A stretch of DNA of 64,000 nt from NCBI RefSeq assembly GCF_010731635.1, contig NZ_AP022583.1, positions 2,108,001 through 2,172,000 of the forward strand, given 5' to 3'. This document shows, piece by piece, positions 9,227 to 47,087 of this stretch. The translations under genes were made by a program, and so were the position numbers. Every line of letters starts with the position of its first letter. Within the stretch, counting starts at the first letter, position 1. Below the pieces are notes generated by a model. The model saw only the letters and a program-made list of their open reading frames with translations. It was not told where the DNA came from and did no database searches. The stretch comes from Mycobacterium noviomagense. Lineage in GTDB: Bacteria > Actinomycetota > Actinomycetes > Mycobacteriales > Mycobacteriaceae.

Positions 9227-9322
9227 GCCACCGATCTTGGCGCACCACCGACCACCCGGCAATCGCAGGCGTCGTCTGCGAGGTCGTTAGCCGACGCCAA
9301 CGCCGGCCGACACAATAAGACG

Positions 9323-25977: not shown

Positions 25978-27470
25978 ATGACTCGGCACACCACATTCCG
26001 GTTCTGCCTCGACCCGACGGTGGAACAGCACGAAGCGCTGACCCGGCACTCGGGGGCCTCCCGGTTCGCCTTCAACCAGTGCCTACGCATGGTGAAAACC
26101 TCGCTCACTCATCACAAAACCGACCCGGAGACGCCTGTGCCTTGGACCGGCTTCGATCTGATCAACGCGTTCAATGCATGGAAAAAGACCGAGAACGCTG
26201 GCCGAGTATTCACTGTCGACAGCTCCGGCGTGGCCGAAGTCGTGGTGACCGGCCTGTCATGGCGGCGCAGTGTGTGCCAGCAGGTGTTCGAGGAAGCTGC
26301 CATCGATTGTGGTCGGGCGCTTGGGGCCTGGTCGGACTCCCGCTCGGGGAAACGCAAGGGCAAGCGGGTCGGGTTCCCGCGTTTCAAAAGGAAAACCGAC
26401 AACGTGGCTTCGTTCAGGCTGCGTAACAATCACAAAAAAGACCGGCCACCGCCGATTCGGGTTGGCGACAATAGCCTGCCCCGGTCGGTCACCCTGCCCG
26501 GCATTGGCGCAATCAAGATTCGTGATGACACCCGCCGGTTGCGGCGCATGCTCACCAAAAACCGCGCCAAGATTCTCTTCGCCACCGTTTCGCGGCACCG
26601 CGGGCGCTGGTGGGTCTCGCTAAACATCCAGGCCGCCGAGCTGCACCCCGCCCATCAACATGCACCGCGCGGCGAAGATGATTCTGGTGGGTGGGTCGGG
26701 GTGGATCGTGGCCTATCGGCTTTCCTCGTCGCCGCCACCAGCGACGGCGCCGAGGTCGCCCGAGTCGACAACGCTCCCAAGGCACTGCGCGCCGGGATGC
26801 GTCGCCAGCGGCGGTTGGCGAAGAAACTGTCACGCAAGAAGAAAGGATCGCAAAACCGCAAAGACGCCGGCGCCAAGCTCGGCCGGCACCACAACCACGT
26901 GGCCAACGTCCGACGACATTTCCTGCATCAGGTCTCCAACGCGCTGGTCAAGACCCACGACCGGCTCGTCATCGAAGACCTCAACGTGTCCGGAATGCTG
27001 ACGAACCAGCGCTTGGCACAGTCGATCTCGGACGCGGGATGGGCCGAGTTCGCCAGGCAGCTGCGTTACAAGCAGGCATGGCGCTTCGGTCAAGTATTGA
27101 CCGTCGACCGCTGGTTCCCATCGAGCAAGACGTGCTCGGCATGCGGCGGCGTGAACACAGCATTGACATTGGCCGATCGTGTGTTCACCTGCGGATGCGG
27201 GCATTCCGCGGATAGGGACACCAACGCAGCGGTGAATCTGGCCCGCTGGGGCCAGGCCCATCACGACCTTCATCGGTCCCCGGACCCCCAAGCAGGAGGC
27301 CGGGCCACCAACGCCCGCCGACGGGACGGCGCTGACCAGCACCCTACGTGTGCGGGTGAAACCAGCCCGGAAGAAGCGGGAACCGACGCTCACACCGCAT
27401 CCGCGGCCTGAGCCGAGGACGCCCGAGAAGGGCGGTGCCGAACACTCCCAGGAGTTATTCGGCAGGCTTT
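25945..27470 (+). mobile_element. Lone tnpB element (IS1341-like organisation), borders approximate
   Basis: The element consists of tnpB without tnpA. By analogy with other IS605/IS607 elements, the guide RNA would come from the 3' part of tnpB and the right end up to about 27480. I could not identify the two ends or a target site by eye, so the limits are approximate. Confidence 0.45.
25978..27411 (+). CDS. tnpB: RNA-guided nuclease TnpB of an IS605/IS607-type element
   Basis: A TnpB of about 477 residues from ATG 25978 (ATG 25963 is also possible). The RuvC-like nuclease residues are visible: Asp in GVDRGLSAFLV (about 240), Glu in VIEDLNVSGML (about 325) and Asp in SADRDTNAAVN (about 405). 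The zinc finger is CSAC...CGC between the last two. The N-terminal TTFRFCLDPTVEQHEAL and FKRK basic region fit mycobacterial IS1535/IS1539-type TnpB. No transposase gene (tnpA) accompanies it. All catalytic residues are intact, so guide-RNA-dependent cleavage is possible. Confidence 0.88.
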   Translation: MTRHTTFRFCLDPTVEQHEALTRHSGASRFAFNQCLRMVKTSLTHHKTDPETPVPWTGFDLINAFNAWKKTENAGRVFTVDSSGVAEVVVTGLSWRRSVCQQVFEEAAIDCGRALGAWSDSRSGKRKGKRVGFPRFKRKTDNVASFRLRNNHKKDRPPPIRVGDNSLPRSVTLPGIGAIKIRDDTRRLRRMLTKNRAKILFATVSRHRGRWWVSLNIQAAELHPAHQHAPRGEDDSGGWVGVDRGLSAFLVAATSDGAEVARVDNAPKALRAGMRRQRRLAKKLSRKKKGSQNRKDAGAKLGRHHNHVANVRRHFLHQVSNALVKTHDRLVIEDLNVSGMLTNQRLAQSISDAGWAEFARQLRYKQAWRFGQVLTVDRWFPSSKTCSACGGVNTALTLADRVFTCGCGHSADRDTNAAVNLARWGQAHHDLHRSPDPQAGGRATNARRRDGADQHPTCAGETSPEEAGTDAHTASAA

Positions 27471-27481
27471 ATCGTGGCGAG

Positions 27482-29125
27482 GTGAGTACAGCCGCTCAGC
27501 TGATGGTGAAATGCCTCGAAAACGAAGGTGTGTCCGTGGTCTTCGGACTACCCGGCGAGGAGAACATCCACTTCGTGCAGGCGCTGGCCGCCTCCGATAT
27601 CCGCTACGTGCTGACCCGCCATGAGCAGGGTGCGGCGTTCATGGCCGAGATGTACGGCCGGGTCACCGGCCGGGCCGCGGTTGTGTCGACGACGCTGGGA
27701 CCCGGTGCGATCAACATGCAGCTCGGCGTCGCCGACGCCACCACCAACAGCACCCCGATGGTCGCGATCTCGGCTCAGGTCGGCCATGACCGCGAGTACA
27801 AGGAGTCGCACCAGTACGTCGACCTGGTGTCGATGTTCGCTCCGATCACCCGCTGGGCCGACGGTGTTCCCACCGCGCGGGCGATACCGGAAATGTTCCG
27901 AAAGGCGTTCAAGGTGGCCGAGACGGAACGCCCGGCCGCGGTATACCTGGCCGTGCCCGAGCACATCGACGCCGATGACGCCGACTACGACCTGACGCCG
28001 TTGCCCCGCAACGTGGTGCGCGCCGAGGCCCCGGCAGCCGGTCAAGTGCAGCGGGCGGTCGAGATTCTGCGCTCGGCGAAGCGCCCGGTGGTGCTGGCCG
28101 GCCACGGAGCCGCCCGCAACGACGCCAGCGCGGCCCTGGTGCGGTTCTCCGACGAGCTCGGTGTCCCGGTCGCCAACACATTCCACGGCAAGGGCGTCAT
28201 GCCCGACGACCACCCCAACAGCATCGGCACGATCGGGTTCATGCGGCATGACTACGTCAACTTCGGGTTCGACAACGCCGACGTCGTCATCGCCGTCGGC
28301 TACGAGCTGCAGGAGTTCGATCCCGTCCAGATCAACCCGAGCGGCGACAAGAAGATCATTCACATTCACCGCTTCCCAGCCGAAGTCGATGTGCACTACC
28401 CGGTTGCCGTCGGCATCATCGGCGACATCAGCGCGTCTTTGAATGCACTCACCGACGCCTTAGCTGGGCAGCGCTACTCCAGTGACGCCGCCCCCGTGTG
28501 CCAGATGCTGGCCGATGAATTCGCTCGTGGACAACAAGATTCGCGGTTCCCGCTGGCGCCGCAGCGGGTGGTCGCCGACACCCGCGCGGCGCTGGGCCGC
28601 AGCGACGTCGTGCTGGTCGACACCGGGGCCACCAAGATGTGGATGGCGCGGCTGTATCCCACTTACGAGCGCAACACCTGTTTGATCTCAAACGGATTGT
28701 CCACCATGTCTTTTGCGCTGCCCGGAGCGCTCGGCGTCAAGCTGGCCCGCCCGGGCTGCAAGGTGCTGGCCGCGGTGGGCGACGGAGCGTTCCTGATGAA
28801 CTCGCAGGAGATCGAGACCGCGGTTCGCGAGCGCATACCGCTGGTGGTGCTGATCTGGGACGACGGCGGCTACGGTCTCATCGAATGGAAAATGGACCTC
28901 GAACTCGGCGACCACTACTACGTCAAGTTCGGTAATCCCGACGTCGTGACCTATGCCGAAAGCTTCGGCGCCAAGGGCTATCGCATCGGCAGCGCAGACG
29001 AACTGCTGCCGACGCTCAAGCGGGCGCTCGACGACGACGGCGTGTCGGTGATCTCCTGCCCGGTCGACTACTCCGAGAACCTGCGGCTGACCGACCGGCT
29101 CGGCCAGCTGGACGCGACGTTGTAG
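27482..29125 (+). CDS. ThDP-dependent decarboxylase annotated as acetolactate synthase; candidate 2-oxoglutarate decarboxylase
   Basis: A 547-residue thiamine-diphosphate enzyme. The N-terminal domain has FGLPGEENIHFVQAL and TRHEQGAAFMAEMYGR with the glutamate that activates ThDP; the C-terminal ThDP/Mg motif runs from GDGAFLMNS to DDGGYGLI. The sequence branch (CLENEGV..FGLPGEEN) is that of proteins annotated as acetolactate synthase but shown in Synechococcus 7002 to decarboxylate 2-oxoglutarate to succinic semialdehyde. The next gene is a succinic semialdehyde dehydrogenase, as in that bacterium. The GTG start is used because similarity begins there. No regulatory subunit gene is nearby. 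Confidence 0.82.
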   Translation: MSTAAQLMVKCLENEGVSVVFGLPGEENIHFVQALAASDIRYVLTRHEQGAAFMAEMYGRVTGRAAVVSTTLGPGAINMQLGVADATTNSTPMVAISAQVGHDREYKESHQYVDLVSMFAPITRWADGVPTARAIPEMFRKAFKVAETERPAAVYLAVPEHIDADDADYDLTPLPRNVVRAEAPAAGQVQRAVEILRSAKRPVVLAGHGAARNDASAALVRFSDELGVPVANTFHGKGVMPDDHPNSIGTIGFMRHDYVNFGFDNADVVIAVGYELQEFDPVQINPSGDKKIIHIHRFPAEVDVHYPVAVGIIGDISASLNALTDALAGQRYSSDAAPVCQMLADEFARGQQDSRFPLAPQRVVADTRAALGRSDVVLVDTGATKMWMARLYPTYERNTCLISNGLSTMSFALPGALGVKLARPGCKVLAAVGDGAFLMNSQEIETAVRERIPLVVLIWDDGGYGLIEWKMDLELGDHYYVKFGNPDVVTYAESFGAKGYRIGSADELLPTLKRALDDDGVSVISCPVDYSENLRLTDRLGQLDATL

Positions 29126-31003: not shown

Positions 31004-31936
31004 TCAGCGCCGATACAGGCCGCCAAGCCGCTTGGCGAAAAACTCACCCAGTTTAAGGTGTTGCGCGCTCGCAACAAACGCGCGGGCCAGCGGCGATCGG
31101 GGCCCCTTGGAATTAACGGCAGCGGCGATCTGCGTCTCCAAGCTTGGATCGACGAGTTCGACCGCGCGAAGGCCAGCACTCATCAGGTTGGTCCACAGCC
31201 AGGTCTGCGGGACGATGCACGCCCTGTCACCACTAGCGGACTGCGCGAGCAACGTAGAGACCGAGTCGGTCTCAACTTGCGGACTCACAGTGATGCCATG
31301 GTGGGCAAAAGTCGCGTCGATCACCTGCCGGACACGCATGTCCGGGGTCAACAGCGCCAGCGGGTATTGGCCCGCATCCACCCACCGCAGTGTCAACGCA
31401 TCTTCAGCAAGCATGTCTGTCGGCACGACGAATACATAGCGATCCTCGTAGAGCGGTACAACGTCCAAACCTTGGCTCTCTTCGGGCGCGACGGGGGCGA
31501 TGGCGGCGTCGAGCTCGAACGCCCGCAACCGCCGGTACAAGTCGGAGGTGGCTAGTTGAGAACGGATTTGTACCTTAGCCCGCGGATGCGCTGAACAGAA
31601 TGACGAAATCACCAGTGACGATGTGGTCGAAGCGGTCGGTATGGTCCCGAGCCGGAGTGTGCCGGCGATTTCCCCGGACTGCATCGCGCGAAGCTCGGCC
31701 CGGAAAATATCGTGCTCGGCCAGTATTCGTTTGGCCCACACCAGCAGCCTCTCTCCCTCAGGAGTAAGACCCTCGAAGCTGCGTCCGCGCTTGATCAGCG
31801 TGACATCCAATTCGCGTTCCAGCTTCGCGATCGCGGCCGAGAGCGCGGGCTGCGACACATAGCACTTCTCGGCCGCCCGAGCGAAGTGCCGCTCCTCGGC
31901 GACCGCGACGAAGTACTCCAGCTGCCGGAAGAGCAC
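31004..31936 (-). CDS. LysR-family transcriptional regulator
   Basis: A 310-residue LysR regulator. The N-terminal winged helix is FVAVAEERHFARAAEKCYVS followed by QPALSAAIAKLERELDVTL; the effector domain occupies residues 90-300. The GTG at 31936 is chosen because GAAGGAGATCTC precedes it. It is convergent with the dehydrogenase stub and divergent from the molbindin gene, across 239 bp. Which of the flanking metabolic genes it controls is unknown; the molbindin and the 33-39 kb oxidase/formate dehydrogenase genes are candidates. Confidence 0.88.
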   Translation of the reverse strand: MLFRQLEYFVAVAEERHFARAAEKCYVSQPALSAAIAKLERELDVTLIKRGRSFEGLTPEGERLLVWAKRILAEHDIFRAELRAMQSGEIAGTLRLGTIPTASTTSSLVISSFCSAHPRAKVQIRSQLATSDLYRRLRAFELDAAIAPVAPEESQGLDVVPLYEDRYVFVVPTDMLAEDALTLRWVDAGQYPLALLTPDMRVRQVIDATFAHHGITVSPQVETDSVSTLLAQSASGDRACIVPQTWLWTNLMSAGLRAVELVDPSLETQIAAAVNSKGPRSPLARAFVASAQHLKLGEFFAKRLGGLYRR

Positions 31937-32175
31937 GAGATCTCCTTCCAAGGCTGCTACTGGGCCCGATCAGCCTAGTGTCCCGGATAAGGCTGGCAGC
32001 TGCGGACAAATCTGACAGCTCCTCACGCTGATCGGTAACCTCCTGTTGCCTAACACGACGTTGCCGCCGGGGATTTCGCACGACATGGCGCCAGCTGACG
32101 CTCGAGGCTGAAACTGCAACGCCGACCAATCCGCGGGCCTATGCTCGTCGCAAACCACCGATATGGAGGACTGCG

Positions 32176-32388
32176 ATGCGATTGTCGACTCGAAACCAGC
32201 TCAAAGGGACCATTACCGATGTTGACCTCGGCAACGTCATGGCGATCGTGAAGGTTCGGCTCGATGGCGGCGACCAGGTTGTCACATCCTCGGTCACCAA
32301 GGATGCCGCGGAAGACCTCGGTCTGAAGGCGGGTCAGCCTGCGACGGTGTTCATCAAGTCGACGGAAGTAACGATCGGCGTCGATTGA
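32176..32388 (+). CDS. Single-domain molbindin (Mop/TOBE)
   Basis: A 70-residue protein that is one Mop/TOBE domain: RLSTRNQLKGTITDVDLGNV at the start and AGQPATVFIKSTEVTIGVD at the end. Such molbindins assemble as hexamers and store molybdate or tungstate in the cytosol. TGGAGG lies 8 nt before the ATG. No molybdate transporter or molybdoenzyme is next to it; the formate dehydrogenase 5.4 kb away is of the metal-free NAD type, so the partner enzyme is elsewhere. Confidence 0.85.
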   Translation: MRLSTRNQLKGTITDVDLGNVMAIVKVRLDGGDQVVTSSVTKDAAEDLGLKAGQPATVFIKSTEVTIGVD

Positions 32389-32455
32389 GCACCCGGCTGT
32401 CACGCTGCGCTGTTTGCGCTTGACACCCAACACGGTGTGCTAGTGCAGGTTTCGA

Positions 32456-32851
32456 CTATCTGTACCCCTCTAGATCCGTCTTCTCAATTGATTGTGCAAG
32501 CTGTTCGCCCTTGTCTGTGAGCTGCAACCACACCGAAAACATCCATCGCTCGGGGTCATCGTAGTGTCTGACGTAGACGAGGGAAATCTTATGCATCGAA
32601 TGCTCGAGCGGGTCAGTCCAGGCAATGAAACGTTCAGGGGAGTGTTCTTTCTCCTGGGCCATGCCTCCCAGCCTGACCAGGCCATCGCTGACCAACGAGC
32701 GAATGACTTCCAGGGCCTCGTTCTGGACTTCCGAGGGTGATGCCGCCGGGTTCTGCTGTCTGACATGCCAATCGACAGCATTGAGATCCAATATATTACC
32801 GAGGCCGTCGAGGAGTAGTCCGTGGCGTGCCTTCTCGCGCGGCGTGCTCAT
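32456..32851 (-). CDS. Hypothetical protein, winged-helix-like
   Basis: A 131-residue soluble protein starting at ATG 32851 with AAGGTG nine nt upstream. The pattern SEVQNEALEVIRSLVSDGLVRL, then a WTDPLEHSMHKI region and WLQLTDKGEQLAQ, resembles a winged-helix domain of the kind in small mycobacterial hypothetical proteins, where LTDKGE follows the recognition wing. Base composition is lower in GC than the backbone genes. No function can be assigned. Confidence 0.6.
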   Translation of the reverse strand: MSTPREKARHGLLLDGLGNILDLNAVDWHVRQQNPAASPSEVQNEALEVIRSLVSDGLVRLGGMAQEKEHSPERFIAWTDPLEHSMHKISLVYVRHYDDPERWMFSVWLQLTDKGEQLAQSIEKTDLEGYR

Positions 32852-33295
32852 CGCTGTTCACCTTGCATATCGCGAATCGTTCTGTCCTCACGCTACCGTT
32901 CGGGTTTTTCCGCAAAACCTCCCTTCCCGGGTTGCTGAAGCAATCTCAGTGTCATACGACGGCCTCCAGGGCGTCCAAGAGATGTTTCCGACTGGTTGAT
33001 AAATCCGATCGATCAAGCCTTGGCTGTTGGGATCTGCACGCGTGCCGGTTGCCATCGGGGTGGTCATTCCCGGACTCGCCGTGTACTGGTCACAGGATGC
33101 TCCAACCTAATCACGTACTACCGCAGTCGAATTCGCAGAACCTACCCTGCATTGAAGCATTCAGCGGAGTCGTTACTTCATAAGCGGCGTGCATCGACCA
33201 ATAACTTCTGCGTCTTGGACGGCCGACAGGACGGCCGACAAGACTAGTGGCGACGGCCAATGGCTCGCGTGCAAACCCAGTCCGAGGAGAAACTC
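32852..33295. other. Upstream region of the GMC oxidoreductase gene
   Basis: About 440 bp with moderate GC and no supported gene on either strand. Near its end, 33217-33228 and 33229-33240 are a perfect 12-bp tandem duplication, GGACGGCCGACA twice, 55 bp before the chosen start. It could be part of a promoter or a slippage product. No clear -10/-35 pair was found. Confidence 0.45.
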
Positions 33296-35059
33296 ATGTT
33301 AGAGGAACAACTCAGCGCCCAGGACGGAGCTCGCTTCGACTTTGTGATCGTTGGCGGCGGAACGGCGGGTTGCGTCGTCGCCGGCCGTCTTGCCGAGAAC
33401 CCCAATGTCAACGTCTTGATCGTTGAGGCAGGCATCGGAAACCCCTGGGACGTTGAGCTGGTTACCACTCCGTCACTGGCTATGGAAATCCGCGGCACTG
33501 CGTCAGACTGGAACTACAAGGCGATGTTCGTCAACCGGAATGTTTGGCAGCGCATTGACAAGCAATGCACCCGCGGGCGGGTGCTCGGTGGTAGCTCCTC
33601 TGGCAACTACTTCAGCTGGATTCCTGGCTGCAAGCCGACCTTTGATCGGTGGGCGGAATACGGTGGGCAGGAATGGAGCTGGGAGCCGCTTGTCCCGTAC
33701 CTCCGCAAGAGCGCGACCTACCACTGCGACCCCAAGGATGCCAAGCGTTACCCCGCCGAGCTCGAGAAGATCGGTGCCGGTGGCCCCATCCCCATTTCTC
33801 ATGCCGACATCCCTGAGTTGCAAAACTTCCGCGACGCTCTCATAAAGGCGTGGACGTCGCGTGGGTTGCCCTTGACCGAAAACATTTATGACGGTGAGAT
33901 GAACGGCCTCACCCATTCGATCAACAGCATCTACCAGGGCCAGCGCTCCGGCAGCTACCTGTTCGTGAAGGACAAGGCCAACATCACGATTTTGTCTGAA
34001 ACTCGCTCGAAGCGTCTGATCATCGATTACGCCGATCGCACGTGCAAGGGTGTGACGGTCGTCGACGCTAGCGGCAACGAGCGCAACTTCTACGCCAACC
34101 GTGAAGTCATCCTGTCCCAAGGGGTCTTCGAGAGCCCTAAGCTGCTGATGCTCAGCGGTATCGGTCCTGCCCGCGAGTTGGCTAAGCACGGTATCGCCGT
34201 GATTGTCGACTCTCGCCACGTCGGCCAGCACCTGCTTGACCACCCCGGAGTGCCCTTCGTGCTGCGCATCAACGACGGCTTCGGTATGGACGACACCCTT
34301 ATACGCCATGGTTCCAAGTACGAAGCTGCTGTTGCCGCCTACCGGAAGGACCATTCCGGACCCATCGGCTCGGGTCTGCTGGAAATGATCGGTTTCCCCC
34401 GCGTCGACGAGTACCTGGAGAAGGACCCCACTTACCGCGAGGCCAAGGCCGCCAACGGCGGGCTCGACCCGTTCTCTCCGGAGGGACAGCCGCACTTCGA
34501 ACTCGATTTTGTCTCGATGTTCGGCAGTGCGTTTCAGTGGCAATACCCGACCCCCGAGGAAGGTGACCACCTCACGGTGATGGTTGACCTGGTCCGACCG
34601 GTGTCCGAAGGCGGTGAGGTGACACTCAACAGCGCCGACCCGCTCGTGCAGCCCAACATCAACCTGAACTTCCTCGCCGATGAGCTTGACATCATTGCCT
34701 TGCGTGAGGGCATCAGGTTCACCTATGACGTTGTCACCAAGGGTGACGGCTTCAAGGACCTCGTGGTCAGCCAGTACCCCTGGGATATGCCTCTCGATTC
34801 GGACGAGTTGATGAGGACGTCTATTCAGGACCGCGTCCAGACGTCATTCCACCCATGCGGTACCGCCCGGCTGTCAAAGAACATTGACCAGGGTGTGGTC
34901 GACCCGAAGCTCAAGGTCCACGGGGTCAACAACCTCCGTGTCATCGATGCTTCGGTCACCCCCGTCATCCCTGACTGCCGCATCCAAAACCATGTCTACA
35001 TGATCGGCGAAAAGGGCGCGGACATGATCAAGGATGACCACAAGGACCTTTTCAAGTAA
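33296..35059 (+). CDS. GMC-family FAD oxidoreductase of fungal type
   Basis: A 587-residue flavoprotein from ATG 33296, which has GAGGAG 7 nt upstream (an ATG at 33260 has none). The FAD-binding start is DFVIVGGGTAGCVVAGRLAE (residues about 15-34), the GMC signature RGRVLGGSSSGNYFSW near 93, and the active-site pair His519 in SFHPCGTAR and His566 in IQNHVYMIGEKG. The C-terminal MIGEKGADMIK...HKDL ending and the body sequence are those of ascomycete alcohol-oxidase-like GMC proteins rather than bacterial choline dehydrogenases. GC is visibly lower than the neighbours. It likely oxidises an alcohol and forms hydrogen peroxide; a catalase gene follows. Substrate unknown. Confidence 0.88.
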   Translation: MLEEQLSAQDGARFDFVIVGGGTAGCVVAGRLAENPNVNVLIVEAGIGNPWDVELVTTPSLAMEIRGTASDWNYKAMFVNRNVWQRIDKQCTRGRVLGGSSSGNYFSWIPGCKPTFDRWAEYGGQEWSWEPLVPYLRKSATYHCDPKDAKRYPAELEKIGAGGPIPISHADIPELQNFRDALIKAWTSRGLPLTENIYDGEMNGLTHSINSIYQGQRSGSYLFVKDKANITILSETRSKRLIIDYADRTCKGVTVVDASGNERNFYANREVILSQGVFESPKLLMLSGIGPARELAKHGIAVIVDSRHVGQHLLDHPGVPFVLRINDGFGMDDTLIRHGSKYEAAVAAYRKDHSGPIGSGLLEMIGFPRVDEYLEKDPTYREAKAANGGLDPFSPEGQPHFELDFVSMFGSAFQWQYPTPEEGDHLTVMVDLVRPVSEGGEVTLNSADPLVQPNINLNFLADELDIIALREGIRFTYDVVTKGDGFKDLVVSQYPWDMPLDSDELMRTSIQDRVQTSFHPCGTARLSKNIDQGVVDPKLKVHGVNNLRVIDASVTPVIPDCRIQNHVYMIGEKGADMIKDDHKDLFK

Positions 35060-35077
35060 CGCGCCCACCTTGACCTA

Positions 35078-35115
35078 TCGGCGGGGCGCCCCCACGACCC
35101 AACCCGCCCCGCCGA
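35078..35115 (+). terminator. Hairpin terminator after the GMC gene
   Basis: TCGGCGGGGCG (35078-35088) pairs perfectly with CGCCCCGCCGA (35105-35115), an 11-bp stem with a 16-nt loop, 18 nt after the stop codon. Only a weak T-rich tail follows, as is usual in mycobacteria. Confidence 0.6.
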
Positions 35116-35196
35116 TTCCAACTCAATTGCCTTTCAGGGCCTCTGCACGGTATTGGCGTAGCTGCCTTGAGATTTCAAATGCAAGGAGATAGTGAA

Positions 35197-36651
35197 ATGG
35201 CGGATAACTACACCACGACGAATGCGGGTGCTCCAGCGCCGAGTGACGAACTATCGTTGTCATTGGGCCCCGATGGGCCAATCCTGTTGCAGGATTCCTA
35301 CCTTATCGAGCAGATGGCTGCGTTCAATCGGGAGCGGGTGCCGGAGCGTCAGCCGCACGCCAAGGGGGCTGGTGCGTTCGGTCGTTTCGAGGTCACCAAT
35401 GATCTGAGCGCCTACACGAAGGCCGCGGTGTTCCAACCGGGAGCTACGACCGAGGTGTTTGTGCGGCTCGCGACCAATGCCGGTGAGCGCGGCAGCGCCG
35501 ACACCCTGCGGGACACCCGGGGATTTTCGGTGAAGTTCTACACCACCGAGGGCAACTTAGACATCGTCGGCAACAATGTGCCGATCTTTTTCATCCGCGA
35601 TCCCATCAAGTTTCCGCAGTTGATCCGCTCGGCCAAGCGCCGCGCGAACAACAATTGCCACGACCACAACATGCAGTGGGATTTTTGGACGCTGTCGCCC
35701 GAGACGGCTCATCTGGTGACGCTGGTGATGGGGGACCGCGGTATTCCCAAGACATTTCGGCACATGAACGGCTACGGCCTGCACGCGTTTAGCTGGATCA
35801 ACACCGCTGGGGAGATCTGTTGGGTCAAATACCACTTCAAGACAAATCAGGGCATCCAATGGTTGACCCAGGAAGACGGGGATCGGCTGGCCGGCACCGA
35901 CCCGGACTGCTGCATGCGCGACCTGCATGAGGCGATCGCGTGCGGGGAGTATCCGAGCTGGTCGCTCAAGGTGCAGATCATGCCGTTCGCCGACGCCAAG
36001 ACCTACCGGCTCAATCCGTTTGATGTGACCAAGGTGTGGCCGCATTCCGACTATCCGCTCATCGATCTGGGCACGATGACGCTGGACCGCAACGTCACCG
36101 ATCACCACACCGAGGTGGAGCAGGCCACCTTCGCGCCCCACGACCTGGTGCCCGGCACCGGGCTAAGCCCGGACAAGCTGTTGCTGGGGCGCAGTTTCGC
36201 CTACGCCGATGCGCACCGCTACCGCGTCGGGGCCAACCACAACCAGATCCCGGTCAACGCCCCTAGGTGTGAGGTGCGCAGCTATTCCAAGGACGGGCAG
36301 ATGCGCTTTGTCAACTCCACCGACCCGGTGTATGCCCCCAACTCCGTCGGTGGGCCGAAGGCCGATCCCGATCGGGCGTCCGAGGTGCGCTGGTCGGCCG
36401 ATGGAGAGATGGTGCGCGCCGCCTACACGCTGCGGCCGGATGATGACGATTGGAGTCAGGCCGGCACCCTGGTGCGCGAGGTCATGGACGACGCGGCACG
36501 CGAGCGCCTGGTGCACAATGTCGTTCATCACGTCTCCGATGGCGTGAAAGAACCCGTGCTGTCCCGAGTCGTCGAATACTGGTACAACATCGACGCCGAC
36601 ATAGGCAAGAAAATCGAGGACGGTATCCGCGCAGCCAACCTGAGCCGGTAA
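35197..36651 (+). CDS. Haem catalase (monofunctional, clade 3)
   Basis: A 484-residue catalase starting at ATG 35197 behind AAGGAG. The distal histidine is His54 in RQPHAKGAGAFG, the distal asparagine lies in DIVGNNVPIFFIRD (about 126), and the proximal haem tyrosine is in RSFAYADAHRYRVG (about 330). Length is typical of small-subunit catalases. It turns hydrogen peroxide into water and oxygen. M. tuberculosis has only the bifunctional KatG, so this is an extra enzyme; standing behind a peroxide-forming GMC oxidase it probably protects against its product. Confidence 0.93.
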   Translation: MADNYTTTNAGAPAPSDELSLSLGPDGPILLQDSYLIEQMAAFNRERVPERQPHAKGAGAFGRFEVTNDLSAYTKAAVFQPGATTEVFVRLATNAGERGSADTLRDTRGFSVKFYTTEGNLDIVGNNVPIFFIRDPIKFPQLIRSAKRRANNNCHDHNMQWDFWTLSPETAHLVTLVMGDRGIPKTFRHMNGYGLHAFSWINTAGEICWVKYHFKTNQGIQWLTQEDGDRLAGTDPDCCMRDLHEAIACGEYPSWSLKVQIMPFADAKTYRLNPFDVTKVWPHSDYPLIDLGTMTLDRNVTDHHTEVEQATFAPHDLVPGTGLSPDKLLLGRSFAYADAHRYRVGANHNQIPVNAPRCEVRSYSKDGQMRFVNSTDPVYAPNSVGGPKADPDRASEVRWSADGEMVRAAYTLRPDDDDWSQAGTLVREVMDDAARERLVHNVVHHVSDGVKEPVLSRVVEYWYNIDADIGKKIEDGIRAANLSR

Positions 36652-36729
36652 AAAGCGGAAGTCGCGGCACCCAGTGTCTACCGCTACGGTGCACCTTGAA
36701 AGCTGTTCCACCGTAAATGCCGGCGCGAT

Positions 36730-36885
36730 ATGGCGGAGAACAATACAACGACCTCCCACGACGCTCGCGACCGCGACCTGGTCACGCTGGTGACCGGCTG
36801 CAGCCAGCACATCTCAACGCGGCTGGCATGGCTACGAATGCGGATGAAAGCCGAAGCGCCGCAGGCGCTTCTGGTCGCATCCTGA
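36730..36885 (+). CDS. Possible 51-residue protein between catalase and Dps
   Basis: A short frame beginning MAENNTTTSHDARDRDLVTL and ending in KAEAPQALLVAS lies in the 296-bp catalase-Dps gap. The start resembles that of the catalase (MADNYTTT). No good ribosome site is seen, and the rest of the gap holds nothing recognisable. It may be a relic or a small protein; support is weak. Confidence 0.3.
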   Translation: MAENNTTTSHDARDRDLVTLVTGCSQHISTRLAWLRMRMKAEAPQALLVAS

Positions 36886-36947
36886 CTTCGGCATTAGGTT
36901 GAAATACGCGGTTTCCGGCGCCACCGATACCAGGAAGGGAATCTGTC

Positions 36948-37448
36948 ATGACCACTTCAGTTCCGAGCACCCGTCGTGACGTCAACGATGTGCACATGTT
37001 CCAAGCTCCTGATAGCTTGCCGCAGAATCTGCAGAAGGTACTCGTGGACTTGATCGAGCTGCACCTCCAAAGCAAGCAAGCGCACTGGAACCTCGTCGGA
37101 ACGAACTTCCGAGATCTGCACCTACAACTCGACAGCATCGTCGACACGGCACGCCGAGCCAGTGACACGATCGCCGAACGTATGCGGGCTCTTTGGGTCG
37201 TTCCGGACGGACGCTCCGACACGGTCGCGGCGACCACAACTGTCCCCGCCATAACACCAGGAGAGCTGAACACCACTGAAACGGTCGACACGATCACCGA
37301 CCGGATCTATGCGGTGGTGGACACCATGCGCACAGTGCATGACGACGTGGGCGCCGCCGATCCGTCGACCGCTGACCTCTTACACGCCATCATTGATGCC
37401 CTGGAGAAGCAAGCCTGGATGCTTAAATCCGAAAACCGCAAAGCGTAA
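36948..37448 (+). CDS. Dps-family ferritin-like DNA/iron-protecting protein
   Basis: A 166-residue Dps protein with the ferroxidase motif in ELHLQSKQAHWNLVG (His) and DLHLQLDSIVDTARRASDTIAER (acidic residues, shown here in part) and the standard four-helix pattern. Dps dodecamers oxidise Fe(II) with hydrogen peroxide and store the iron, preventing Fenton damage. GGAAGGGAATC precedes the ATG. It follows the catalase in the same direction and completes a peroxide-defence set beside the oxidase. Confidence 0.88.
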   Translation: MTTSVPSTRRDVNDVHMFQAPDSLPQNLQKVLVDLIELHLQSKQAHWNLVGTNFRDLHLQLDSIVDTARRASDTIAERMRALWVVPDGRSDTVAATTTVPAITPGELNTTETVDTITDRIYAVVDTMRTVHDDVGAADPSTADLLHAIIDALEKQAWMLKSENRKA

Positions 37449-37519
37449 GTTATCCATTTGATCCGTTGAACTTGGGCGCAAGTGGTTTCGTCGTCTAAGG
37501 CCTGCTATGACAGCGTGGG

Positions 37520-37822
37520 ATGCATGATCAAGAAGCAAGTCAAGAGAACTACCAGGTCAATCTGCCAACTGACAAACAGCTTTTCAACTACTTTGGCATC
37601 TCCCAGGTGCAAAAAGCAGTGGCGCAGTGTCAACGTGAAGTGGCTCAGGCGCGACGACGGTGCACTCGTCGCAAGCGACAGCCGACGCTTGATAGAACGC
37701 GGATACCGCCCGATAGCTGGCGCATCTTGGACTCCCCGCCAGATAAGGGATCACACTGGTTGTGGCGGCTACCGGCTGATCGGCTGATGGCCGTCCCGGA
37801 AATTGCATTTGAGGAGAAGTGA
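37520..37822 (+). CDS. Hypothetical 100-residue protein overlapping the formate dehydrogenase start
   Basis: The frame 37520-37822 encodes a glutamine- and arginine-rich protein (LFNYFGISQVQKAVAQCQRE in the middle) with no recognised domain. Its stop TGA overlaps the formate dehydrogenase ATG as TGATG, an arrangement used in coupled translation. Against it: no clear ribosome site, and the 37449-37821 gap otherwise looks non-coding. Kept as a low-confidence candidate. Confidence 0.35.
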   Translation: MHDQEASQENYQVNLPTDKQLFNYFGISQVQKAVAQCQREVAQARRRCTRRKRQPTLDRTRIPPDSWRILDSPPDKGSHWLWRLPADRLMAVPEIAFEEK

Positions 37823-38976
37823 TGGCGAAGTGTGTGATGGTTTTGTATCCCGATCCGGTCAACGGATACCCGCCGAAGTACGCTCGCGACAGCATCCCCG
37901 TGATCAAGAGCTACCCGGATGGGACGTCGTTGCCGACGCCGTCGAAGATCGACTTCACGCCCGGCGAACTGCTCGGCTGTGTATCGGGGGCGTTGGGATT
38001 GCGGAAGTTTTTCGAAGAGAACGGCCACGAGTTGGTGGTGACGTCGGACAAGGACGGTCCGGACTCAGAGTTCGAGCGGGAGCTGCCCGATGCCGACATC
38101 GTGATTTCTCAACCGTTTTGGCCTGCGTACATCACCAAAGAGCGGTTCGCCAAGGCGCCTAAACTCAAGCTGGCGCTCACCGCTGGCATCGGATCGGACC
38201 ATGTGGATCTTGACGAAGCGCAAAAGCGCGGCGTCACCGTCGCCGAAGAAACCTGGAGCAACAGCGTCAGTGTCGCGGAGCACGCGGTGATGCAGATCCT
38301 GGCGTTAGTGCGGAACTTCGTCCCATCGCACCAATGGATAGTCGACGGTGGCTGGAACATTGCCGACTGTGTGGAGCGTGCCTACGACGTTGAAGGCATG
38401 GATGTCGGGGTGATCGCCGCCGGCCGCATAGGACGGGCCGTGCTGGAGCGCATGAAGCCGTTCGGAGTGCACCTGCATTACTTCGACGTTCATCGGTTGT
38501 CGCCCGAGGCGGAGAAGGAGCTCAACGTCACGTACCACCCCAGCGTGGAATCGCTGGCGAGCTCGGTAGATGTGGTGTCGATCCACTCACCGCTGATCTC
38601 GCAGACCCACCGCATGTTCAACGAGAAACTGCTGAAGAAAATGCGACGCGGCTCCTACATCGTCAACACCGCCCGGGCCGAGGAAACCGACCAGAAGGCG
38701 ATCGTGGCGGCGCTGGAAAGCGGCCACCTCGCCGGCTACGCCGGTGACGTGTGGTTCCCCCAGCCGCCCCCGACGGACCACCCGTGGCGCACTATGCGCA
38801 ACAACGCGATGACGCCGCACGTATCAGGCACCACCTTATCAGCGCAGGCGCGCTACGCCGCCGGCACCCGCGAAATCCTCGAAGACTGGTTGGCCGGCAA
38901 GCCCATCCGCTCGGAGTACTTGATCGTGGAGGGCGGAAAGTTCGCCGGCACCGGGGCGAAGTCCTACCAGCAGTAG
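37822..38976 (+). CDS. fdh: NAD-dependent formate dehydrogenase (metal-free, D-2-hydroxyacid dehydrogenase fold)
   Basis: A 384-residue enzyme that oxidises formate to CO2 with NAD+. It aligns to the Pseudomonas sp. 101 / M. vaccae enzyme with a constant one-residue offset: Asn147, Asp222 (NAD specificity), Arg285, Asp309, Gln314 and His333 correspond to Asn146, Asp221, Arg284, Asp308, Gln313 and His332. GAGGAGAAG precedes ATG 37822. The two cysteines linked to inactivation of that enzyme, Cys145 and Cys255, are Ser and His here. The C-terminus is shorter by about 15 residues. It ends the oxidase-catalase-Dps run and would dispose of formate and yield NADH. Confidence 0.93.
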   Translation: MAKCVMVLYPDPVNGYPPKYARDSIPVIKSYPDGTSLPTPSKIDFTPGELLGCVSGALGLRKFFEENGHELVVTSDKDGPDSEFERELPDADIVISQPFWPAYITKERFAKAPKLKLALTAGIGSDHVDLDEAQKRGVTVAEETWSNSVSVAEHAVMQILALVRNFVPSHQWIVDGGWNIADCVERAYDVEGMDVGVIAAGRIGRAVLERMKPFGVHLHYFDVHRLSPEAEKELNVTYHPSVESLASSVDVVSIHSPLISQTHRMFNEKLLKKMRRGSYIVNTARAEETDQKAIVAALESGHLAGYAGDVWFPQPPPTDHPWRTMRNNAMTPHVSGTTLSAQARYAAGTREILEDWLAGKPIRSEYLIVEGGKFAGTGAKSYQQ

Positions 38977-39010
38977 CCGCCCACATCCAACCATCCGCGG
39001 GCGGCGGATT

Positions 39011-39027
39011 ATCGGAAGCCGTCCGAT
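39011..39027. terminator. Small hairpin between convergent genes
   Basis: ATCGGA-AGCCG-TCCGAT forms a 6-bp stem 35 nt after the formate dehydrogenase stop and is followed by an A/T-rich run. It may end both converging transcripts; the stem is short, so confidence is low. Confidence 0.35.
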
Positions 39028-39081
39028 TCCAATTCAATATTGGCTGGTCTTGAACGCTCTACTGGGATAGCACGCGATTGG

Positions 39082-40001
39082 CTATGCAGCGTGCGTGTTG
39101 AACCAATCCATCGGCAGTTCGGGGTGCTCGCCGAAGTAGTTGTAGCCGTCGAAGCGTCGGGTTGTTCCCTCGATCCAGTGCAGCTTCTTCTCCTCCGCGG
39201 GGATGGCGTCATAGATCGACTGCACATCCTCTGGGCGGGTCATCGAGTCGTGGTGAACCTGCACCACCAACGTGGGGATGCGGATCGACTTGGCGTACTC
39301 GATCGGCGACTGCTCGGACAGATGGAAACCGGTTCGTTCGTGGACCGCCTTGGCGAATCGCTCGTATCCGTCCGGAATGTTGTTGGCCCTGACGAACTCC
39401 TCGATGACCGGGTTCGCCGACACCGGCTGCAGCAGGATCAGCGACTTGATGTGCTCGAACTCCTCCGGGTGCTTGGCCATCGCGACGCAGGTCGAGTCAC
39501 CGCCTAGGCACACGCTGAGCAGAAACGTGGTCATCGACGCGGTGTCTGGACGCGACTGGGCGTAGCGCACCGACCCGATCACGTCGCGATACTCCAGCAG
39601 ACCGATTCCGGCGGTGCCGCCGTTGCGTGCTCCGCTCAGCCCGTGGTTGCTCATGTCGTAGCACAAGATGTTGTAGCCGGCGTCGTGCAGCGCCTTGTAC
39701 TCGGGCAGGAAGTTCACCTCGAATCCACCCAACCCACCGAACTCCGGCAGATGGCCGGGATAGCCGTACCGATTGCCGGGCAGAAGTGGTTATGGATGAT
39801 CAGCTTGTCCGAATCGGCTGGGATGAACCACCCTTCGAGCGGAACGCCGTCCATCGAGGGAAAGAACACCTCTTCGTACTCCAGGCCCACCTCCCCGGGA
39901 CGGCGCAGCACCGGTGCACGCCGGCCTGCCGTCGTGCCCGTCACCCACATGTCCACGAAACTGTCGAGGGCTGCTTGACCCTGCTGGTCCTGGTTCGCCA
40001 T
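39082..40001 (-). pseudogene. Alpha/beta hydrolase with cysteine nucleophile, frameshifted
   Basis: The N-terminal part from ATG 40001 (GAGGAAG upstream) reads to LIIHNHFCPA, and the rest continues one frame over as NRYGYPGHLPEFGGLGGFEV, so one base is missing at about 39772-39777. Restored, the protein is 306 residues. The nucleophile elbow reads SVCLGG, a Cys as in dienelactone hydrolase instead of the usual GxSxG serine. Asp and His candidates lie in HHDSMTRPED and LHWIEG. It is convergent with the formate dehydrogenase and divergent from the broken regulator. It may be inactive in this strain, or the shift may be a sequencing error. Confidence 0.72.
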
Positions 40002-41063: not shown

Positions 41064-42518
41064 TCAGTCGCCGGACGCCGGTGATGTTTTCGCCCTGCCC
41101 AGCGTGACCGGCCCGACGTATTCGCCAATAGGCGTGCGGTGCCACCATGCCCGGTCGCGCAACAGCTCACGCCAGGTGGTGTAGCGATACTCGTAGAACT
41201 GGACCCGCAAATACCGCGGCGGGGAATCGGGGAACGGATTGTGGCGCAGGAGGCGCAGCGTCGCCGGATCGTTTTCCAGCAGCCGCACCAGCAACGGACC
41301 CAGCCACCGCTCGGCGTACAGCGGTGAGATCGCAGCGAACCACATGAGCCAGTCCAGCCGCAGGTGGTATGGCGCCCATTGCGGCGGCAGCCGGCGTACA
41401 TCGCCGGGCTTGCCCTTGAATTCGTATTCCTTCCATCCGGTCTGCTCGGTGACCTCCGGCTCATCGGTGCCCTCGATGACTAGCTCTCGGCGGATCCGGC
41501 CGATGCTGCCGAAGGCGCCGTAGGTGTTGATGAGGTGGAAGGGGTTGAACGACATGTTCATCCGCTGTTGGCGGGAAAGCATGTTGCGTATCGGCCAGTA
41601 GCTCAAGAACAGTGAGAACACCGTGAACGCGATCACCAGCGCGGCGAACCACAACGGCGGGCCGTGCCACACGGGGTGCTTGGGCAGCGGCAGCACCGTC
41701 GCCCACGACGAGTCGTCGATCACGCTGCAGCCCAACAAGATCGTCAGCCAGTTCAGCCAGGCGAAGTTGCCCGAGATCACCAGCCACAGCTGGGTGACGA
41801 CGACGATCGCACCCGCCACACTGGCGACCGGTTGCGGGGCGAACAAGCCGAACGGCACCACGAGTTGGGCGAAGTGGTTGACCGCCACCTCCAACCGGTG
41901 CAGCGGCTTGGGCAGGTGATGGAAGAACCAGCTCAACGGCCCTGGCATCGGCTGAGTCTCGTGGTGGTAGTACAGGCAGGTGAGGTTGCGCCAGCACAGG
42001 TCGCCGCGCAGCTTGATCAGCCCGGCGCCGAACTCCAGCCGGAACAGCAGCAAGCGCGCCAGCCACATCGCGAGCACCGGCGGTCCAACGTGCTCGTTGC
42101 CGAGGAAGATCGCGAGGAAGCCGGTCTCCAGCAGCAGCGACTCCCAGCCGAACGAGTACCACGTCTGCCCGACATTGACGATCGACAGGTACAGCACCCA
42201 CAGCACCAGCCACATCGGCATCGCCGCCCACAACGGCACAAGATCGGCGGCGCCGGCGACGATCGCGGCCGACAGCGCCGCGCCGAACCACGAAATGGTT
42301 GCGAAAAACCGGTCCGAATAGTGGAAATGAAACAGGCTCGGCGCCTGCCAAAACGTCTGCCGGGCCAGATAATGCGGTATCGGCAGCATTCCGCGCTCTC
42401 CGAGAAGCGCACGGAACTGCCTCGCCGCGGCGACGAATGCGATCACATAGACAGCCGCCACACCGCGCTCGAGTACCAGTCTGCCCAGCCAATATTCCGG
42501 TGCCGTAAACCATCCCAT
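41064..42518 (-). CDS. Lipase-maturation-factor-like membrane protein (Rv0235c orthologue)
   Basis: A 484-residue membrane protein from ATG 42518 (GGGAG upstream), matching Rv0235c (482 residues). It has six or more membrane segments and conserved blocks such as SIVNVGQTWYSFGWESLLLE and RLEFGAGLIKLRGD (family signature of lipase maturation factors), then a soluble C-terminal domain with PPQWAPYHLRLDWLMWF. In animals LMF1 helps fold lipases; the bacterial role is unknown. Backbone synteny resumes here after the island. Confidence 0.88.
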   Translation of the reverse strand: MGWFTAPEYWLGRLVLERGVAAVYVIAFVAAARQFRALLGERGMLPIPHYLARQTFWQAPSLFHFHYSDRFFATISWFGAALSAAIVAGAADLVPLWAAMPMWLVLWVLYLSIVNVGQTWYSFGWESLLLETGFLAIFLGNEHVGPPVLAMWLARLLLFRLEFGAGLIKLRGDLCWRNLTCLYYHHETQPMPGPLSWFFHHLPKPLHRLEVAVNHFAQLVVPFGLFAPQPVASVAGAIVVVTQLWLVISGNFAWLNWLTILLGCSVIDDSSWATVLPLPKHPVWHGPPLWFAALVIAFTVFSLFLSYWPIRNMLSRQQRMNMSFNPFHLINTYGAFGSIGRIRRELVIEGTDEPEVTEQTGWKEYEFKGKPGDVRRLPPQWAPYHLRLDWLMWFAAISPLYAERWLGPLLVRLLENDPATLRLLRHNPFPDSPPRYLRVQFYEYRYTTWRELLRDRAWWHRTPIGEYVGPVTLGRAKTSPASGD

Positions 42519-42601
42519 GTCCGCAACTCCCGGGACCGTGGACGTTGACAACCGCCTCTCTAGATCTCAGCCTAAAACGCGATGTCGCCGAAGGTCTGCA
42601 G

Positions 42602-45600
42602 TTACTGATCGCGCGATTCTGCGGGCCGCATCGTCACCGATGAAGACACCACCGCCAGCGACACCAGGGCCAGCAGCTGCACCCACGGCGAGTGTCCGAC
42701 GTAGCCGTCGACCGACCGCCAGGGATGTCGCGACAGCGCTGCACCGGCCAGAATCAGCCCGCCGGCCGTCAAACCGAGCGTGATCGCGTCGCACCATCGC
42801 TGCCGCTCGCGCAGCGCATAGCGCAGCGCCAGCGCCGCACCGAACACGAAGAACCCGGCTACACCGGCGATCACGATGCCCGCGCCCAGCGCCGCGACCG
42901 CCCCCCACCGCCCGAGAGCCCACGGACGCGCCGGCACGTCGTCGTCACGCCGTCGTCGCGCCGGCCACCACGCGAGCAGGGCCAGCAGCGGCAGCAGAGC
43001 CAGTCCACCCAGCAGCCCGGCGCGGTACCACGAATTCGAGACGAAGGTCAGCGTGATCGTTCCCGAGGTGCCCGCGGGCACCACCCAGCCTTGCTGCCAC
43101 CCGTTGACAGCGACCGGCGTCAACCGTGTTCCGTCGTCGGCGCGTGCCACCCAGCCGGGGTTGATGCTTTCCGGTACCACCAGTACCCGCGACGTGCTCG
43201 CCGGGGGCGCCTGGACCTCGCGGCGCGCCGGGCCCCATGCGCCAGTGACGGCGAACGCCTTTGTGGCCGTGGGTAATTCGGATGCTCCGGAAGCTGTCAA
43301 CGCGGCACCGTCGACCGCGAACGCGTCGCCGGGACTGATGACCAACTCTTGCTGGCCGGCCGGCAGCGCAATGGGCTCACGTTCACACGGTTGGGCTGCC
43401 ACTGGTTCGCCGTTGAGCAGCGCGCCCACCGTTGTGCGGATCGAGGTGTGCACAAAGCGGCCCGCTATCGCGATGACCGGGCCGTTGCCGCAGTCGACGG
43501 TGATTTCCCGCGACCGGTTGCGCCGTGCGTCGGGCGCAGCCACGGGTCGACCGTCACCGCCGAGGACCGCTACCTCGGCCAAGCCTGGTGGCTTGAGCTG
43601 GTCGAAACCCAGCGCGGTGCGGTCGATGATGTCCCGCCAGTCCAGCAGGCTGATTGTAACGGTGTCGGTGGTGCGCGGTTTGAGCCGTACTGTCTGCGGG
43701 GCCGTGCGGTCGCCTGATTTCAGTTCGCGAACCTGCGGACCGTCGCCGAGGTCGACGGCCACCATGGTCGGGTGGGCCGGCACTGCCGACATGCTCGGGG
43801 TGAGCTGCAGTCCGGTCACCTCCGTGGGCCGCGGCAAGGTGAGGGTGAGCGTCGGCGGGGTCTTGTGCGCAACGACATGCTGCGGTGCTGTCCACGCGGT
43901 GGCCGGATCACCGTCGGTGGCGGCGTATGCGGAGCCCAGCACGTCGATAAGGTCGGAGTCGCCGCGGGCCCGCACAGTGTCCGGCTCGGTGACGAGGTCG
44001 GCCAGCTTGGGGCCCTGCCGTGGCCGCACCCACACCGTCGGCGTCACGGACACCGCCCGCGGCACGCTGAGCGTCCGGCTGAAACCCACCTGCTCTTCGG
44101 GGGTCAGTGCCATGGACGCCGCGCAGTGCACGCCGTCGGGTCCCTTGGCACAGCCCGGTCGGCCGAGCGGCTCTGAGCCCAGATCCCATTGCCTGACAAC
44201 CGAATTCGGTGACGGACCCGGAACCAGCACAGTGTGGCGCAGCTCGACCGGATGGGCGTAGCCGGACGCGTCGTACTGGGTGACCGACAGATCGGTGATA
44301 CCGAACTGCACACCGGCGGACCCGTCGTCGGTGCCGATGGCGGTGATCCGCACCCACGGCGTTTCCCCGTAGGGCAGCGCCGCAGTGAGCGGCTTGCCGG
44401 CCTGGTCGAACCGCAGCGTGGTGGTGCCGTTGACGGTGGCGACCTGGATGCGGCGGATCTGGGCGCCGACGGCGGTGGCGCTGGGCGTCAGGGTGATGAC
44501 GCCGTTGGTCACCGGATGGTCGAAATCGACCTGCAGCCATTGGCCGACCGCGGCCTGCAGCGCATTGGACACCCACGCCGTCGCCGGGTCGCCGTCGATG
44601 GCCGCAGCCGGTGAGGTGGCGGGCGCGACATCCGGCAGCGCGGTGGAGTCCGACGATGAACTCGACGCGCTGAGCCGGCCGCCGTTCCAACCGCCGAAAA
44701 CCGTGTCGGCACCGGGCACCGGGTAGTCGGGCACCCGGTTGTAGGTGTGCCGGGCGTCGCCCGCGGCGCGGATCGCCGACGAGTGGTTGTCGACGCGGCC
44801 GTAGTCAGTCTCGCGGGCCAACGGGGTGTCGGTGACGGTCACCAACGGCACCGGCAGGCCGGCCCGGGCGGCGTCGGCGCTCAGCAGGACCGGGCCCAGC
44901 GCGGGTTGGTTGAGCAGGCGGCGTCGTTCGTCGAGACGCAGCAGCACCTCGGGGCCGCCGTCGACGCGGGCCAGCTGGTCGGTGTCGGCGAAGTAGGGCG
45001 CGCCCGGATTGCCGGCGGCGGCGACTCGGTAGATCTCCACCGCGGGATACCGCGGCCGCAGCCCGCTGTCGGTGACGAACCCCGACAGCGCGCCGGCACC
45101 GACCGGCGCCCCGAACTGTGCCACCTTTTCCAGCCCCGGCGACCCGGCGATCGCCCGGTGCACCAGAATCGGCCGCGCCGAGCGCGACGTCTGCGGGTCC
45201 AGGTCGTTGCGCACCACCACATACGAAATGCCTTGGCGGGCAAGCGTATCAACCAACCCCACTGATGGCCGCCCGGCGGCGAACAACCGCTGCACCGAGT
45301 CCAGGGCCCGGATGGTTTGCGGCGGCGTGAGTGGGATGGAGTCTCGGACGCCCCACGGGCTGTCACCCAACACCTGCAGCGGCTCGTCGTGGCTGGTGCC
45401 CCAGACCTGGGTCGCGAACGGCGCGCCGGGAACCACCAGCACCCGCCCGCGCGTCGGGGTGCCGGTGTTGTGCTCGGTGAGCCAGTCGGCGGCGTCACGC
45501 CAGTACTGCGGTATCGCGCGGAAGGTGCCCGGCGGCGCAAGCCGACCAGTCCAGGCCAGCGACGTGCCCGCCAGCAGCGCGATGAGGACGACGATGCCGA

Positions 45601-46909: not shown

Positions 46910-46913
46910 GGGG

Positions 46914-47087
46914 CTACGTGCGGTTGCCGTACTCGACCCGGTTGAGCACCGACGACTGCGGATCGCCACCGGGCAGCGGCGGCTTGGTGTCCTGTTGCAC
47001 CATCAGCGTGATCCCGAAGATCGCGGCGGCGCCGAGCAGCAGACCAACCACGACGCTAGCCGCCGCAGGCGCAACGAACCGGTTCAT
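46914..47087 (-). CDS. Small membrane protein (Rv0236A orthologue)
   Basis: A 57-residue protein from ATG 47087 with GAGGAG upstream. It is a single hydrophobic helix (VAPAAASVVVGLLLGAAAIF) followed by a short polar tail ending VEYGNRT. Length equals Rv0236A. It sits 4 nt before aftD and is co-transcribed with it, so a role beside AftD is likely but only inferred. Confidence 0.85.
   Translation of the reverse strand: MNRFVAPAAASVVVGLLLGAAAIFGITLMVQQDTKPPLPGGDPQSSVLNRVEYGNRT

Follow-up and report, generated by a model that had tools for sequence, protein, structure and literature searches.

Methylotrophic yeasts oxidize methanol by means of alcohol oxidase, catalase, formaldehyde dehydrogenase, and formate dehydrogenase (FDH), while a membrane-bound "formate oxidase" activity is said, in the title of a 2008 paper by Shinagawa (cited in PMC8523742), to occur in acetic acid bacteria. 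Soluble formate oxidase of the GMC family is described as a fungal enzyme in the accessible parts of two papers (PMC11236828, PMC13059055), and structures are available for the Aspergillus oryzae protein (3q9t, 5zu2, 5zu3). A gene group comparable with these systems was identified in Mycobacterium noviomagense (genome of 4.78 Mb) within a stretch of 64,000 nucleotides analysed at its full length (G000:C1:2108001-2172000, hereafter the window), where open reading frame and family-model analysis revealed genes for a GMC-family oxidase, a monofunctional haem catalase, a Dps-type ferritin, and a nicotinamide adenine dinucleotide (NAD)-dependent metal-free FDH in that order on the forward strand. 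The group very probably houses a module oxidizing formate by two routes, an O2-dependent oxidase and the NAD-FDH, with the catalase clearing the peroxide. The window oxidase shares with the A. oryzae enzyme the whole-length match, the His-Arg pair, and the equivalents of R87 and S94, and differs in its bacterial host, single uninterrupted frame, and Gly in place of L97; its gene stands beside those for catalase and NAD-FDH. Likewise, the FDH has the family model, length, and catalytic positions of the Pseudomonas sp. 101-type enzyme (2nac, 7ya3) but belongs to a sub-lineage whose members are linked to catalase and, in most cases, to the oxidase as well. The yeast route has in common with the module a peroxide-making GMC oxidase, catalase, and NAD-FDH, whereas formate, the final intermediate of that route, should be the substrate of the module's oxidase, which lies outside the Pichia branch. 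The acetic acid bacterial activity is also a bacterial, O2-coupled formate oxidation but, judging from the title, a membrane activity and not a soluble GMC flavoprotein.

The oxidase gene (33296..35059, + strand) encodes 587 residues from the ATG at 33296 in a 599-aa frame that opens at 33260 and is intact and uninterrupted in the window. Among PDB sequences, its best matches were the A. oryzae formate oxidase and its variants at 976-978 bits over residues 20-598, followed at 226 bits by aryl-alcohol oxidases and an entry named alcohol oxidase (8rpg) and at 197 bits by choline oxidase, and Pichia alcohol oxidase 1 (5hsa) reached only 106 bits. A 2011 study by Doubayashi et al. (listed in PMC5827430) reportedly concerns, by its title, a His-Arg catalytic pair in formate oxidase, which we take to occupy positions 511 and 554 of the fungal chain, consistent with the alignment numbering. 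The equivalents in the 599-aa frame, His531 and Arg574, were both kept in 119/119 aligned family rows (118 of 120 listed relatives plus the window protein, which is identical to P0005 and so counted twice; P0024 and P0114, shorter than 540 aa, were excluded from alignment and tree). Seven other GMC proteins aligned with them, of which six are paralogues from the window's genome and one is a Chryseobacterium protein, retained the His and had Asn (six) or Gly (one) at the Arg position. By whole-length similarity and active-site residues, the GMC protein is thus a predicted formate oxidase.

The same data bear on the alternative in which the GMC protein oxidizes alcohols or aryl alcohols and supplies a one-carbon route of the methanol type, a reading to which the shared superfamily, the 8rpg and aryl-alcohol enzymes as next-best solved relatives, and the adjoining catalase and FDH genes lend something, whereas a bit score four-fold below that of formate oxidase and an Arg that is Asn or Gly in the seven other GMC proteins render it highly improbable. 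Membership of the Pichia alcohol oxidase (AOX) branch was rejected (106 vs. 978 bits). An earlier note on this DNA had likened the genes to the methanol-oxidation logic of yeasts, which the whole-length match and active site contradict; it had also tentatively placed the GMC protein outside the yeast methanol-oxidase branch, as the Pichia score bears out, and its proposal of a fungal-type oxidase, probably a peroxide-forming one, beside a catalase and a metal-free FDH is correct. Proteins of this kind currently appear in records as "choline dehydrogenase" or "GMC family oxidoreductase", and one labelled Mycobacterium marseillense is 89% identical to the window oxidase.

In the fungal enzyme, formation of the cofactor 8-formyl-FAD (FAD, flavin adenine dinucleotide) depends on R87 and S94, according to the accessible part of one paper (PMC11236828). 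The equivalent Arg105 and Ser112 of the window protein were conserved in 119/119 rows and are necessary rather than diagnostic, because GMC proteins outside these rows have them too in some cases. The fungal residue L97, also close to flavin C8, is replaced by Gly in the window protein; this position was Gly, Ala, or Ser in 31/119 rows, all within one clade of 42 rows, which includes all those with a mycobacterial label and in which the other 11 rows keep Leu97. The oxidase probably carries a self-made 8-formyl-FAD. No signal peptide was evident by eye, no predictor having been run, and the FAD motif starts ~15 residues in, so that the peroxide would arise in the cytoplasm.

The catalase gene (35197..36651, +; likely ATG at 35197 in a frame opening at 35167) is of the monofunctional haem type by its Pfam Catalase (568 bits) and Catalase-rel (67 bits) domains, with 9t0l as its best solved relative (651 bits); the Pfam families found in the group were GMC_oxred_N/C, Catalase, and Ferritin. 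The FDH gene (37822..38976, +; frame opening at 37819) was identified by the NCBIfam model for NAD-dependent formate dehydrogenase (NF005750, 676.7 bits, cut-off 329) and by PDB matches to 7ya3 (613 bits) and 2nac (583 bits), residues 1-382 of 2nac aligning to 3-384. Once this two-residue shift is allowed for, the SNS, NTAR, PQP, PHVSG, and FDVHR motifs place the expected catalytic and NAD residues at the positions of the Pseudomonas enzyme, presumably Asn146, Arg284, Gln313, His332, and, for NAD, Asp221. The Dps gene (36948..37448, +) matched a starvation-inducible DNA-binding protein/Dps chain (2z90, 219 bits).

The neighbourhood was compared with ten other mycobacterial oxidase loci, comprising L009 (M. 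icosiumassiliensis) and those of genomes G022, G046, G116, G187, G219, G239, G1043, G1073, and G1115, where locus L008 is on the same contig as the G187 locus. Nine of the ten had a catalase gene and seven an FDH gene within 5 kb of the oxidase, with the draft assembly L104, whose FDH is in pieces, counted for both and kept out of the trees described below; a Dps match was found in 0/10. As a control, 16 FDH neighbourhoods unlinked to the oxidase were used, 13 from genomes free of oxidase matches together with the remote copies of G046, G219, and G239, and these contained a catalase of the module kind once (G172) and the oxidase never (0/16). The grouping therefore exceeds chance, with catalase at 9/10 and FDH at 7/10 of the oxidase loci against catalase at 1/16 of the unlinked FDHs. 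A formal chance estimate (5.8e-20 for catalase, 1.7e-16 for FDH) was not relied on, as it assumes independent loci and copy numbers of 3 and 1.5, and the mere presence of catalase was rejected as a signal since 230/248 genomes of the genus have one; the signal lies in adjacency and lineage. The four same-strand genes put forward in the earlier note are thus real by coordinates and family models, and its expectation of one functional group conserved elsewhere holds for oxidase, catalase, and FDH, which recur as a set, and fails for Dps, a neighbour specific to the window that does not belong to the conserved group.

The genes linked to the oxidase also belong to their own lineages. All 13 linked catalases, namely 12 linked to the oxidase and the FDH-linked one of G172, formed one clade (99/100) apart from nine unlinked catalases and the outgroup in a tree of 19 places plus four from L009, L103, and L105. 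Similarly, the eight linked FDHs, G172 included, constituted one clade (100/99) apart from 19 others in a tree built from 24 of 53 listed FDH places plus three from L009, L103, and L105, and G046 and G219 each carry one FDH of the linked kind and one of the other. With the linked catalases and FDHs each in a single clade, the oxidase and its two partners seem to have been inherited together and not to have been brought side by side time and again. Gene order has been reshuffled despite this apparent co-inheritance, being FDH-catalase-oxidase in L018, L020, and L103, oxidase-FDH-catalase in L021 and L104, oxidase-catalase-LysR-FDH in L009, and catalase-catalase-oxidase in L008, L022, and L105, the three loci with two catalases, of which L105 has an FDH beyond.

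The control neighbourhoods contained a LysR-family regulator (47-55%) in 15, an acetolactate-synthase-like (ALS) gene in 11, and a lipase-maturation-factor (LMF) homologue in 12 of the 16, and so define a common mycobacterial FDH locus (ALS, LysR, FDH, LMF, AftD) within which the window module sits. Its left frame in the window is the ALS gene (27350..29125, +; NF006187, 782 bits) and its right frame the LMF gene (41064..42551, -; Pfam LMF1), next to which is AftD (42602-46969; Pfam AftD). At this locus, G116 has oxidase-catalase-catalase directly adjoining LMF-AftD and G187 has catalase-catalase-oxidase starting 4 kb beyond ALS-LysR, and no FDH was found in either genome at E 1e-100. From these two genomes, we infer that the oxidase with two catalases replaced FDH at the formate locus, and of all the evidence from gene context this speaks most strongly for formate being the substrate.

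In the proposed mechanism, the first route would run through a cytoplasmic, Aspergillus-type GMC formate oxidase (formate + O2 -> CO2 + H2O2), whose peroxide the dedicated catalase would remove, and the second the NAD-FDH (formate + NAD+ -> CO2 + NADH), by which the electrons would be conserved. Additional protection may come from Dps in the window genome (iron and DNA) and, in L020, from a DyP-type peroxidase encoded ~90 bp downstream of the oxidase that may add to peroxide removal. The oxidase would constitute an irreversible formate sink independent of NAD+, useful with abundant formate or a reduced NAD pool. Formate could be supplied by, for example, formaldehyde oxidation via a mycothiol-dependent dehydrogenase or by one-carbon metabolism. 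The earlier note had remarked that a formaldehyde-to-formate step is not encoded in the group; no such step is missing from the module because both of its oxidoreductases start from formate, and a mycothiol-dependent formaldehyde dehydrogenase is encoded elsewhere in the genome (G000:C1:4728378; 688 bits, cut-off 512.9).

Formate is also a reductant of catalase compound I, and a formate-burning cycle can accordingly be envisaged in which oxidase-derived peroxide would be used by the catalase for the peroxidatic oxidation of a second formate, requiring no NAD+ and releasing no net peroxide. Such an oxidase-catalase cycle, which is possible though unlikely, could take over from FDH completely; the two genomes with an oxidase, two catalases, and no FDH found would be cases of this. 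A different purpose would be the production of H2O2 itself as a signal or as a weapon against competitors, fuelled by formate, with the catalase protecting the producer. Formate oxidase does yield H2O2, and a catalase with Dps (here) or a DyP peroxidase (in one relative) is adjacent; however, an oxidase with no evident signal peptide would release its peroxide intracellularly, the FDH alongside it draws on the same formate and yields no peroxide, and the two catalases in three loci would destroy the product, which makes this purpose improbable.

Oxidase genes are rare in bacteria, having been identified in 7/248 and, in a larger draw, 10/396 genomes of the genus (the window's genome included), in 3/401 genomes and 1/31 genera of a family draw, and in 1/396 genomes and 1/236 genera of a phylum-wide draw. 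A pattern scan with one genome per species, non-exhaustive in that it missed loci found by the genus genome search, returned two loci from mycobacteria and a single, unrelated GMC gene from Chryseobacterium (30% identity). Plasmid carriage was rejected, as a search of 72,556 plasmid records, from which the window's own or very near records were possibly left out, gave no match at E 1e-100. Among the oxidase records, P0036 (77%, one contig) is labelled "Mycobacterium tuberculosis variant bovis", perhaps through mislabelling of the assembly, and P0039 (78%, 19 contigs) "Mycobacteroides abscessus".

Like this rarity, the interruption of the oxidase in one genome and its solitary state in G239 suit the view that it is a passenger beside FDH that has little use today and is being lost, surviving only in some lineages. 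The active-site residues are nevertheless invariant across all aligned rows, linkage with a lineage-specific catalase and FDH is repeated, and the frame in the window is intact, so that there is little to be said for a passenger role, and a formate-oxidation module is preferred.

The best 120 of 2854 protein relatives of the oxidase included seven labelled mycobacterial and 24 labelled fungal, the rest having no organism label, and all 24 named non-mycobacterial rows among them were fungi. A careful tree of 44 of the 119 rows and three outgroups (GMC rows taken as the longest open stretch of each locus, which may include residues ahead of the start) placed its 15 mycobacterial rows, comprising seven so labelled, seven without an organism label that were assigned by another tree, and the window, in one clade (100/99) nested among fungal rows, a nesting also present in that other tree. 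The forks responsible for this nesting had moderate support (87/87 and 80/95), the outgroups had very long branches and were only ~30% identical, and a single fungal clade was not rejected as an alternative (approximately unbiased test, p-AU 0.251). As the rooting test does not prove direction, the case for transfer rests on the wide fungal and rare bacterial occurrence and on Leu97, the fungal residue kept by the earliest-branching mycobacterial rows; a clean polarity is contradicted by four deeper-nested rows (P0030, P0032, P0042, and P0044) that also have Leu97. Transfer from a fungus to a mycobacterium is the likelier direction, although not proven, and the oxidase gene, probably fungal in origin, would then have joined mycobacterial FDH and catalase genes.

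Several observations weigh against a two-route module as proposed. The intergenic gaps to the likely starts (137, 296, and 373 bp from oxidase to catalase, Dps, and FDH in turn) and the shuffled gene order argue against a single fixed operon. In G239 (L023, a 7.7-kb contig), the oxidase has no catalase or FDH nearby, its genome's FDH (65%) being on a different contig. Conversely, G172 has linked-type FDH and catalase but no oxidase match, so the pair can stand alone; at this locus (L057, G172:C101:56000-70000), the two genes are side by side and accompanied by a LysR gene, and either the oxidase was lost or the pair arose first. The oxidase is also dispensable, since it is rare and since in Mycolicibacter icosiumassiliensis (L009:8177-11269) it is interrupted by an insertion-sequence-like element with an rve integrase (8683-9528, -), which we take to be IS3-like. 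Finally, the change of L97 to Gly means that 8-formyl-FAD formation could differ from that in the fungal enzyme.

The left flank of the group consists of the ALS gene, a succinic-semialdehyde dehydrogenase gene, a LysR gene (-), and genes for a TOBE-domain protein and a 131-aa protein (-), and the right flank of a hydrolase-like stretch (-), LMF, and AftD. Two of these products are candidate module regulators. The LysR-family protein (31004..31951, -; LysR_substrate, 8.5e-34) had relatives of 62-68% within 7.5 kb of the oxidase in five of the ten other loci, compared to 47-55% for the LysR near unlinked FDHs, and L022 has two further LysR relatives at 80-82%. The 131-aa protein (32456..32851, -) had no Pfam match but had tblastn relatives of 52-70% in six of the ten other loci (L008, L018, L022, L103, L104, and L105). 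Among 14 genomes, close copies were present in four of seven with the oxidase and in none of seven others, one of which (G029) had distant copies only (33-39%). Its low-confidence structural model (pLDDT 60) gave PadR regulators as best Foldseek matches (E 0.03), a lead for a possible winged-helix (PadR-like) regulator. A promoter and terminator scan of the module region detected no signal exceeding chance, terminator-like sites in 31900-39200 numbering six against 6.3 expected.

Between catalase and Dps, a short stretch (36724..36752, +) weakly resembles the 5' end of another catalase copy. In blastn (E only 0.001), 29 bases matched the beginning of the second L008 catalase at 86%, and 27 bases matched a site close to the beginning of one of the L105 pair at 89%. 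The stretch is possibly the scar of a lost tandem catalase duplicate and, as three relatives carry two tandem catalases, Dps may have replaced that copy. An open frame upstream of FDH (37520-37822) matched no Pfam family and no DNA in 11 related loci. Further features of the flanks are a stand-alone TOBE-domain (molbindin-like) protein of 70 aa encoded upstream of the module (32176-32388, +), present although the FDH here is of the metal-free kind, and the hydrolase-like stretch (39082-40001, -), which consists of two short frames in the window and of a single frame of 302 or 324 aa at the matching place in L009 and L021, respectively, and so looks degraded.

A literature search of titles and abstract openings, with subscription journals mostly beyond its reach, found no description of such a module. 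In the accessible parts of the sources retrieved, "formate oxidase" together with mycobacteria occurred only as a reference-list mention or in Aspergillus niger citric-acid work, and one paper, in the part available, uses the term for what reads like a CO-dehydrogenase annotation (PMC9977764). A bacterial formate oxidase accompanied by a catalase and an FDH of its own would lead to correction of the names "choline dehydrogenase" or "GMC family oxidoreductase" now attached to these proteins, and naturally matched oxidase/catalase/FDH sets would be on offer for biotechnology. The mycobacterial module would give a physiological setting to an enzyme employed as a biocatalyst, and, if the direction is confirmed, the oxidase gene would provide a clear case of fungus-to-bacterium gene transfer.

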